Of a stretch of DNA of 64,000 nt, positions 3,991-53,669 are shown one piece after another. The DNA lies in the NCBI GenBank assembly GCA_020073665.1, contig JAIQEU010000004.1:310001-374000 (forward strand). The letters are read 5' to 3'. The DNA comes from Terriglobia bacterium (GTDB lineage Bacteria > Acidobacteriota > Terriglobia > Terriglobales > Acidobacteriaceae). How positions within the stretch are numbered: the stretch's first letter is position 1; every line of letters begins with the position of its first letter. The notes beneath the pieces were generated by a model. The model was not told the origin of the DNA and searched no databases. It saw only the letters and a program-made list of their open reading frames with translations. The position numbers and the translations under genes were made by a program.

Positions 3991-5016
3991 CTAAGGCACC
4001 ACCACCCGCAACGCACCCTTGGCTACACCGACTTCGATCGGGGTCTGGCAGACATACTCGCCGTCGGCATACACATCCAGCGGATGCTCGGTTTCCATGC
4101 GCAGCCGTTCTGCATGGAAGTATTCGACCTCTGGCATGCCGAGGTGACGGCCAAAGTAGACGGTTGGAAAAAGGCAAAACAGCTTGAACCTATCGATATC
4201 CGTAACCAGGCAGACATCAAGCTGGCCGTCATCGAGGCGTGCCTGTGGCGCAATCTTCATTCCTCCTCCGTACACCGGAGCATTGGCGAAGGCGGCGAGG
4301 ACGGTCGGCCTGGTGCTGCGCGTGGTCCAGCCGTCCGGTGGCTGGGGTGTGAGGATCGTCAAGGGAAACGCCGCGAACCGCAAGAGTGCCGGGGCTAGGC
4401 TGACGACGTAGCCGCCGTGTCCGCGCAGCCAGCGCGGCAGCTTGTTGGCACGGCGGGCAACCTCCCCATCCAGGCCCACCCCGCCAACGCAACAGAAGTA
4501 GTGCCCAGTACCGGGCCCCGAGTGTCGAGCCGAATCGCGTGGCGCAGGCGCCTCGCCCGCGACGGTGGGTGGCGACGCCGTTGCTGCCGCAACCGCCTCA
4601 GGCGACTCCGAGAAGGACACGGCTTCAGCCGTGCCAATATGGCTGCTCTGAGAATGGGGCTTCTGCCCCTGAGGGTGTGGTTGCGCCGCGATCACGCCGA
4701 GATCAATGGTGCGCTCATTGCCGCCGCCCGAGGAAAACTTCCGCCATGCCTCTACCGAATCCTTAACGCTCCGCAGATTCAGCGCACGAGCGAAATCATT
4801 CCCGCTGCCGCAGGGCACCACCAGCACGGGCCGTTGCAGCTTGACCAGATCTGCGAGGTGGCGATGGACGGTGCCGTCTCCTCCAAAGATGAGGATGGCG
4901 TCAGCGTCGTTTGGGCTGGCTGGCAGGCCGATAGCCCACTGTGCATTGGAGTTCGCCTGGAATGGCTTCAGATCTTTAGTGGACGACCCCAAGCCGAAGA
5001 TGGCAGCGGCGCGCAT
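3991..5016 (-). CDS. diacylglycerol/sphingosine-type lipid kinase (DagK/YegS family) with internal insertion
   Basis: The nucleotide-binding motif GGDGT (45-49) and PCGSGNDFARAL (68-79) identify the DAGK catalytic domain. The C-terminal beta-rich half (VGLDGEVARRA, VYADGEYVCQTPIEVGV) is also normal. Such enzymes phosphorylate diacylglycerol or related lipids with ATP. Residues of about 111-170 are an insertion between TIDLGVI and HYFCCVGGVGLDGEV, which are nearly adjacent in relatives. The insertion is low-complexity, and part of it is the translation of a palindromic repeat (see 4617-4674). It probably forms a surface loop. tyrS lies 86 bases upstream and sppA 65 bases downstream, all on the same strand. 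Confidence 0.87.
   Translation of the reverse strand: MRAAAIFGLGSSTKDLKPFQANSNAQWAIGLPASPNDADAILIFGGDGTVHRHLADLVKLQRPVLVVPCGSGNDFARALNLRSVKDSVEAWRKFSSGGGNERTIDLGVIAAQPHPQGQKPHSQSSHIGTAEAVSFSESPEAVAAATASPPTVAGEAPAPRDSARHSGPGTGHYFCCVGGVGLDGEVARRANKLPRWLRGHGGYVVSLAPALLRFAAFPLTILTPQPPDGWTTRSTRPTVLAAFANAPVYGGGMKIAPQARLDDGQLDVCLVTDIDRFKLFCLFPTVYFGRHLGMPEVEYFHAERLRMETEHPLDVYADGEYVCQTPIEVGVAKGALRVVVP
4617..4674. repeat. double-hairpin palindromic repeat inside the lipid kinase gene
   Basis: Two adjacent hairpins are visible: CACGGCT-TC-AGCCGTG and GGGGC-TTCT-GCCCC, joined by an AT-richer spacer. The arrangement resembles the extragenic palindromes elsewhere in the window (53607, 61652). Here the element lies in frame within a coding sequence and is read as residues such as HPQGQKPHSQSSHIGTAEAV. 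Confidence 0.65.
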
Positions 5017-29514: not shown

Positions 29515-29976
29515 TAGGATTCCTGAAGAACCTATATCGATCCTGCTTTGAAAGGGCGCGCCTTTAGGCGCGCCGTTAAATCCTTATATTATTTGTCATT
29601 CCGAAGCGGCTTCGGCCGGTGAGGAATCCTGGTTCCGACCTTTCCCGCATCTGGTCTAGCCGCTTTCACCAGATCAGCCGGCTGGCTGCAAAGCGGACTC
29701 AACGACTCTTGGCCGACCCCAAACACGCCCGATGACCCTGGCATTCAAAATGCAGGCAGCATTGACCGTGCGACCAGCATCCATACCAGTAGCACCTCAG
29801 TAATGTTGGTCGCAGACAGGCGACCTTGTATGTTTGGAAAGGTCTTGGGGAGGATGGAATGGAATTGGCAGTTCTGATCGTAAGTCTGTTGGTCGTCGGA
29901 TCACAGATTCCCGGGAATTCGCACACCATCCTGCGGTGAACGGCCGCCACCTCTTCGCCGTGGAATCGTCCTTTTC
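29515..29976. repeat. 462-base gene-free gap with two palindromic repeat elements
   Basis: A perfect 8-bp hairpin GGCGCGCC-TTTA-GGCGCGCC occupies 29555-29574 and may end pgsA-amrA transcription. About 20 bases on, TTGTCATTCCGAAGCGGCTT continues to GAGGAATCC (29593-29628), a form of the TGTCATTCCGA...GAGGAATC repeat common in several phyla. The remainder, 29633-29976, contains no frame with convincing coding character and nothing else I can name. Confidence 0.6.
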
Positions 29977-52559: not shown

Positions 52560-53585
52560 ATGCCAAGCGTCATAGCCCTGGACGCGATGGGTTCCGACCG
52601 TGCTCCGAAGCCGGAGATCGAAGGTGCGATCCTGGCCGCGCGGCAGTACGGGGTGCGAGTGGTGCTGGTCGGCGTCGAGAGCACCATTCGCGCCGAACTC
52701 GACCGCCATCCTTCCGCTGCTGATCTGCCCCTGGAAATCGTGCACGCCAGCGAAGTCATCACCATGGATGACAAAGCCGTGCAGGCCGTGCGCGCCAAAC
52801 GCGACTCCTCCATCAGGGTTGGGCTGCGGCTGGTGCGCGACGGAGTGGCCTCCGGATTCGTAACCGCGGGCAATACCGGCGCCGCCATGGCCACCGCCAA
52901 AATGGTGCTGGGCGCGATCCCCGGCGTGGATCGACCGGCACTGGCTGCCGTCTTCCCTACCGCGCTCGGCACCGCCGCAACGCTTCTCGACGTGGGCGCG
53001 AACGTGGACTGCAAGCCGCAGAATCTGGCCCAGTTCGCCGTGATGGGCGAAATTTATTTTCGTTCCATGTTCGGCACCCGCCGTCCGCGCGTAGGGCTGC
53101 TTTCCATCGGCGAAGAAGAGACTAAGGGCAACGAACTGACGCGCGATGCCTTCCAGTTGCTGAAGCAGCTGCCGCTGAATTTTGTCGGTAATGTGGAAGG
53201 TCGCGACCTGTACAACGGCGAGGTCGACGTAATTGTCGCGGACGGCTTCGTGGGCAACGTCGCATTGAAGATTTCCGAAGGTGTGGTCCACCTGGTGCGT
53301 ACGACGTTGAAAGAAACGCTGAAGACCACCATTACGCGGCAGGTGGGGTACCTGCTGTCGCGCAGCGCCTTCTCCGATTTCAAGAAGCGCCTCGATCACA
53401 CCGAGTATGGCGGCGCTCCCCTGCTCGGGGTGAAGGGTGTGTGCTTCATCACCCATGGCTCGTCGAACGCCAACGCCATGAAGAATGCCGTTCGCGTGGC
53501 CGCAGAATTCGCCGAACACCGGATCAATGACTCGATTGAGAAGGGCCTGGCGAAAGTCCGCGCGACAGCGGTGGTGATTACCTAG
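52560..53585 (+). CDS. plsX: phosphate acyltransferase
   Basis: A 341-residue peripheral membrane enzyme that makes acyl-phosphate from acyl-ACP for phospholipid synthesis. The opening [19 protein letters not shown], the [20 protein letters not shown] segment and [15 protein letters not shown] are standard. The gene directly follows rpmF. No fabH follows, although that gene commonly sits between plsX and fabD; fabD comes next after a palindromic repeat. Confidence 0.96.
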
Positions 53586-53606
53586 GCTGCCGTGTTCAGC
53601 TGCTGC

Positions 53607-53630
53607 GGCGCGGCTGAAGCCGCGCCTTTT
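53607..53630. repeat. GGCGCGGCT-GA-AGCCGCGCC palindrome with TTTT tail
   Basis: A perfect 9-bp stem followed by TTTT, between plsX and fabD. It has the form of the palindrome family seen at 4617 and 61652. It could work as a partial terminator in this operon. Confidence 0.7.
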
Positions 53631-53669
53631 CAAAGCCGCGCACCACATAAACCGGGCCATTCGATTTCT

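Follow-up and report, generated by a model that had tools for sequence, protein, structure and literature searches.

What is the origin of the loop of about 60 residues (~110-171) that separates the two conserved domains of a lipid kinase in a Terriglobia bacterium? The gene lies in a stretch of 64,000 nt, here called the window, which covers positions 310,001 to 374,000 of the forward strand of contig JAIQEU010000004.1 (assembly GCA_020073665.1) and is about 86% coding (0.86) by a crude count of open reading frames. The genome, G000, comprises 5.42 Mb in 62 contigs (GTDB lineage Acidobacteriota; Terriglobia; Terriglobales; Acidobacteriaceae). The kinase locus has the following features:

3991-5016, minus strand: YegS/DgkB-like lipid kinase gene, 341 aa
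4507-4575, minus strand: older Pro/Ala-rich part of the loop (SPPTVAGEAPAPRDSARHSGPGTG), not repeat
4576-4689, minus strand: inserted segment relative to the orthologue L066, 114 bp or 38 codons
4605-4680, minus strand: double-hairpin repeat element, in frame as residues ~113-137
4656-4669, minus strand: hairpin 1, GGGGC-AGAA-GCCCC
4616-4635, minus strand: hairpin 2, 8-bp stem with a TGAA loop

Profile matches above cut-off place DAGK_cat (PF00781) at residues 34-107 and YegS_C (PF19279) at residues 180-339. Orthologous sequences align with the kinase before and after the loop, and the shortest loop found at that place in the protein alignment of the family has ~7-10 residues. An earlier note on this DNA had proposed that about 60 extra residues (111-170) are present, that part of them is a palindromic repeat read in frame, and that orthologues would define the edges of the insertion.

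Those edges were obtained from DNA and protein alignments with L066, the closest repeat-free kinase orthologue (61% identity), which is without the 114 bp at ~4576-4689; they are good to a few codons. The Pro/Ala-rich part SPPTVAGEAPAPRDSARHSGPGTG is common to L066 and to a second relative, L153, in the alignments, and its presence in L066 puts it outside the capture. Thus, the loop is two-layered: a newer insertion of 38 codons has been added to an older linker. The insertion and its in-frame repeat are as first described, and the captured portion is smaller: the repeat explains ~25 kinase residues (113-137), with 38 of the ~60 as the upper limit.

The element itself measures ~75 bp, so that ~38 bp of the 114-bp insertion lie beyond it. 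By eye, an imperfect direct repeat, GCGGC(A)GCAAC, flanks the element at 4679-4689 and 4580-4590. It could be a target duplication or a product of slippage, and would then account for part of the extra 38 bp.

Copies of the repeat were recruited by a DNA search of the genome with the window segment, and a covariance model, R1, was built from 16 other genomic copies with the window copy excluded. R1 places both hairpins in its alignment of the kinase element and scores this element at 55.4 bits (E 3.7e-14 in the window; E 3.1e-12 and rank 26 among the places found in the genome), in a test that is not wholly independent because the 16 copies had been recruited by the window segment. The genome-wide count proposed in the earlier note gave 56 places at E<1e-3, with 150 of 2977 candidates scored. 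Two of these, one on contig C6 and one on C35, appear to be parts of a single imuB locus that the assembly has broken, which leaves 55 distinct loci.

The 16 aligned copies share two hairpins ~20 nt apart, one with a GGGGC stem and a TAAA-type loop, the other with the stem GGCACGGC and a TGAA loop. The consensus has the outer ends CCCTCAG and CTTCCCAAAAC; by eye, the end opposite CCCTCAG reads CTTCCC. Stem cells are paired in 89.4% of cases, a value reached by none of 500 shuffles, and 4 of the 13 stem pairs are changed on both sides (6 of 500 shuffles show as many). Further pair types in the stems are no more numerous than in shuffles (158 of 500 as high).

The folding energy of the kinase region is ordinary (z -1.08; 31 of 200 shuffles as good) and was dropped as evidence for a hairpin element. 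The case therefore stands on family membership and on the comparison with orthologues.

The kinase copy had also been described as having the same design as intergenic repeats in the window. R1 detects two further copies there:

29544-29630, minus strand: intergenic repeat copy with hairpin 1 decayed, 34.0 bits, with no coding open reading frame over it
53575-53637, plus strand: degenerate copy, essentially hairpin 2 only, 35.7 bits, spanning the junction of two open reading frames

Of these two, the first is clearly intergenic. Repeat finding in the window alone was of little use, since the window copies are too diverged.

The claim that a dispersed repeat has become protein sequence without breaking the frame is upheld: the element is read in frame in the kinase, nearly all orthologues examined are without it, and dozens of copies lie elsewhere. 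Furthermore, other genes have undergone the same process. Set against the window's coding fraction of about 0.86, 3 of the 55 loci could be read as captures in frame within conserved genes, firm in the kinase and in pheT and weaker in an imuB-like gene, and the other loci are intergenic, at gene edges, or beneath open reading frames to which no credit was given. This count comes from a hand reading of 12 chosen copies together with orthologue alignments, and other open reading frames over copies (e.g. 135-247 aa) were set aside by judgement. An automatic coding screen of this genome flagged 2 of the 56 places, one in pheT and the other in the part of imuB on C6; the kinase escaped it, because the downstream loop of that gene scores low.

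An open frame is present in all 39 copies of at least 45 bits, and the GTAEAVPF frame of hairpin 2, which both the kinase and PheT use, is open in 29 of these 39. Survival in frame is thus not improbable. The location of the copies fits the usual view, in which gene-breaking insertions would be lost and a few frame-keeping ones would survive.

The copy in the imuB-like gene scores 32.4 bits with R1, and the length of this linker varies among orthologues. Contig C35 (L163) and the start of contig C6 (L164) have in common the end of the imuB-like gene and a repeat copy and then diverge; this reflects either an assembly break at the repeat or a second, truncated copy.

The same coding screen applied to genomes G006 and G061 covered 30 loci and flagged three, the pheT of G061 and two genes of G006. 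The latter, at L175 and L177, encode a Methyltransf_28 protein and HpnE, a hydroxysqualene dehydroxylase. In both, the domain match runs across the element, which is read on the strand opposite the repeat, and judging from these matches they are likely in-frame captures.

Further captures lie in PheT. In the window's own genome, the pheT product (TIGR00472, 549.6 bits) carries the repeat in frame (54.4 bits) in the linker before the B3/4 domain. R1 also finds it in frame in the same linker of G063 (78.2 bits), G061 (64.0), G067 (60.2), G122 (38.9) and G062 (32.7). The linker of G027 holds two copies in tandem (71.5 and 38.6 bits), that of G066 holds one in reverse orientation (57.6 bits), and that of G088 presents a weak match (22.2 bits). 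A second copy in the PheT of G067 lies at residues 458-482 (62.9 bits). Element positions within the PheT loci (L162 and L195-L218) include the following:

L195, 1739-1813: element in a PheT gene
L201, 1724-1798, minus strand: element in a PheT gene
L210, 1418-1493: element in a PheT gene
L210, 2537-2611: element in a PheT gene

These figures derive from a survey in which 109 of 120 sampled genomes gave a PheT match and R1 was run on 50 loci, namely 30 plus 20 picked by hand, nearly all of the latter for a long or split match. In a sample of 20 genomes, PheT was matched in 19, six of which have the linker repeat. The carriers represent at least four genus codes, with G061 taken as G135 and G062 as G112; to judge by the contig coordinates, each of these pairs seems to be one genome, and it was counted once.

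We mapped the presence of the repeat on a PheT tree of 55 rows computed with the linker columns left out. Duplicates, fragments, one remote homologue and unreadable linkers (20 of 74 loci) were left off, the short rows of G061 (44% of columns filled) and G062 (20%) were kept, and G088 was scored as being without the repeat. Presence of the repeat in either orientation takes five changes on this tree; the forward state alone takes six, at least four of them forced by starred branches. The forward label is hardly clustered on the tree (151 of 500 shuffles as low), and in G080, a close sister of G061 (support 100), the linker is short, at 34 residues. Each of the changes counted may be a gain or a loss, but the reversed copy of G066 needs an event of its own, an insertion or an inversion. 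The repeat has apparently been captured several times at one PheT site.

The kinase site has a single parallel. A contig scan for kinase relatives returned eight acidobacterial matches and one distant clostridial match, and an internal element is present in 1 of the 37 other kinase loci compared (L066-L094 and L153-L160, some of them remote homologues). The earlier note had named distant genera sharing the insertion as the sign of an old conserved domain; the one carrier among these loci, L153, belongs to a related Terriglobia species (genome G061, the MAG Terriglobia bacterium SRVP_17) and encodes a 68%-identical kinase. At a further locus, L081, an element overlaps the 3' end of the kinase gene. 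Three loci, L067, L068 and L069, have a different insertion of ~50 residues in the same loop; these insertions are mutually alike (LGPxIMRxHLHHL) and without the repeat.

The L153 element scores 43.8 bits with R1 and starts within one codon of the window copy. Hairpin 1 and its frame agree in the two genes (PQGLKP against PQGQKP). Hairpin 2 and the tail of L153 are of another type, with 3 of the 8 stem pairs changed on both sides and pairing kept. Similar units continue in tandem after the tail, GCGCCACCCA (~2903-2965). Units like GCGCCACCCA resemble the tail of a second repeat subfamily, and the imuB copy has them too.

It is a serious possibility, falling somewhat short of an even chance, that the window and L153 insertions arose separately, two repeat subfamilies having landed at the same tolerant site; the alternative would be a single insertion with half of it replaced. 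The difference in type of hairpin 2 and the tail, including the stem pairs changed on both sides, points in this direction, and the window copy has closer matches among other copies in its own genome (best alignment score 36.0) than in L153 (28.0). The similarity of the two linkers is weak (206 of 5000 shuffles as good) and no better than that with unrelated copies, the best of which tie with it; we find homology of the two linkers unconvincing on this test. PheT, moreover, offers a precedent for repeated capture at the same site, once in reverse. What speaks for a single landing instead is hairpin 1, with its identical frame and a start within one codon.

An interpretation of the kinase as a pseudogene, or of its locus as an artefact of assembly, is very improbable: the assembly is in 62 contigs, and C6 and C35 share the imuB/repeat junction, but the kinase frame is unbroken over 341 codons, conserved sequence flanks the loop on either side, and a relative has the same arrangement. 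The notion that the loop is an old conserved functional subdomain which happens to hold palindromic DNA could draw on the similar insertion of L153 at the same site and on the different one of L067, L068 and L069, but is largely refuted and retains next to no probability, given that 36 of the 37 other kinase loci (some of them remote homologues) are without an internal element, that the same DNA is dispersed and mostly intergenic, and that the window and L153 peptides diverge past the first hairpin.

We are highly confident in the remaining reading, in which the segment is a mobile REP-like repeat of ~75 bp in the kinase loop, translated as a tolerated linker and probably moved in trans by a Y1 transposase. 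According to this reading, the double-hairpin repeat would have landed in the loop that joins the two halves of the kinase. Since the insertion is a multiple of three and the frame has no stops, it would be translated as a linker, and the enzyme would tolerate it. The kinase is probably expressed and active, and the effect of the insertion on it may be neutral. Modelling of the loop, also proposed in the earlier note, gave a poor result: the AlphaFold model of the kinase, computed with 8 sequences, has a mean pLDDT of 54.6, with the insert at ~26-35 and without secondary structure. This prediction agrees weakly with a floppy loop.

The last element of this reading is the agent of movement, which would be one group of Y1 (HUH) tyrosine transposases acting in trans. 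Within the window's family, 34 of 37 genomes, its own counted, have R1 copies (E<=1e-5); the figures are 0 of 14 for the order's second family and 3 of 10 for the class's other families, in a scan with stricter filters in which at most 79 candidates were scored per genome. All 13 genomes tested for Y1 transposase genes have them (94 matches). We examined 46 Y1 loci, comprising all those of G000, G006 and G061 and the loci returned for ten other genomes, and defined a linked group as those scoring >100 bits to the L319 transposase, a reference chosen since it lay among repeats.

R1 copies (E<=0.01) lie no more than 500 bp from the transposase at all six loci of the linked group. Among the loci of other Y1 groups, 0 of 40 have such a copy within this distance, the nearest lying at ~560 bp (weak) and 940 bp. 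At L304, L310 and L321 the transposase is bracketed by inverted copies of at least 49 bits each; L318 and L322 have weak copies (19-29 bits). The transposase reading frames of L319 and L321 continue into the repeat as ..PQGLKP...

The window's genome has five Y1 genes, all of other groups, and none of the five has a repeat nearby. Given the absence of the linked group, the family may be immobile in this genome, or the 62-contig assembly may lack the gene. From its position beside the repeat in relatives, we consider the linked group the candidate mobiliser, and by analogy with the way RAYTs are thought to move REPs it is likely that one Y1 group moves the repeat.

The family resembles several known systems. 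As in REP/RAYT systems, it consists of dispersed, mostly intergenic short palindromes in tens to hundreds of copies; a Y1 transposase flanked by repeats, the other trait of such systems, is found in relatives and not in the window's genome. REPINs, treated together with RAYTs by Bertels and Rainey in 2011, are reportedly non-autonomous dispersed double hairpins near a Y1 transposase. In a symmetric REPIN, a spacer separates two copies of one REP in inverted orientation. Here, the stems of hairpin 1 (GGGGC) and hairpin 2 (GGCACGGC) are unlike in sequence, and the element is therefore not a symmetric pair of one REP. REPs of the GTAG type have a GTAG-type tetranucleotide at the foot of the hairpin. 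The consensus ends CCCTCAG and CTTCCC are without GTAG, which makes the repeat REP-like or TIR-type and not a GTAG REP.

Intragenic REPs of the GTAG/CGTC type are described by Di Nocera et al. 2013 (PMC3733652) as dimers encoding 20-30 residues in genes that include tRNA synthetases and repair genes, with REPs at about the same recB site in two Xanthomonas species. Our element differs from these in taxon and, by eye, in having no GTAG or CGTC tag at its ends. The same paper describes Acidobacteria transposases flanked by inverted repeats (TIRYT/TIRtron), including Koribacter versatilis ORF1552, whose TIRs belong to a repeated family, and states that some TIRs are double palindromic (PMC3733652). 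A Y1 transposase bracketed by inverted repeats, as described there, is common to these and to our family, and in the terms of Di Nocera 2013 the element is probably a 'TIRtron' repeat.

In its behaviour, the repeat is close to the Rickettsia palindromic elements (RPE; Ogata et al. 2000/2002), which as described in PMC2229807, PMC10969869 and PMC3733652 are 105-150 bp long and lie in frame in proteins. Both are palindromes open in a frame and inserted in frame into unrelated conserved proteins; for the kinase and pheT, orthologue alignment finds the element in frame, in a conserved gene and absent from orthologues. In contrast to RPEs, the present element belongs to another phylum, measures ~75 bp against 105-150 bp, and adjoins a Y1 transposase group in relatives; the likeness drawn here is one of behaviour. 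The portions of open-licence full texts that were searched contain no report of repeat capture in acidobacterial kinase or PheT genes.

Gene capture of palindromic repeats as a kind is thus already known from Rickettsia RPEs and intragenic REPs, and what makes the present case interesting is that captures recur at one PheT site and that a transposase group is linked to the repeat. The best-known examples of coding capture come from Rickettsia, whose members are obligately intracellular; it is now seen in soil-type Acidobacteria, in an essential synthetase and recurrently at one site. It is conceivable, if rather doubtful, that a palindrome linked to a transposase keeps supplying the proteins of Terriglobia with in-frame linkers, and that PheT, perhaps with the kinase loop, would be a true hot spot through the target preference of the transposase, beyond mere tolerance, with several independent PheT hits in both orientations. 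In relatives a candidate mobiliser adjoins the repeat, and the source, the choice of target and the fate of new protein segments become comparable across many species.
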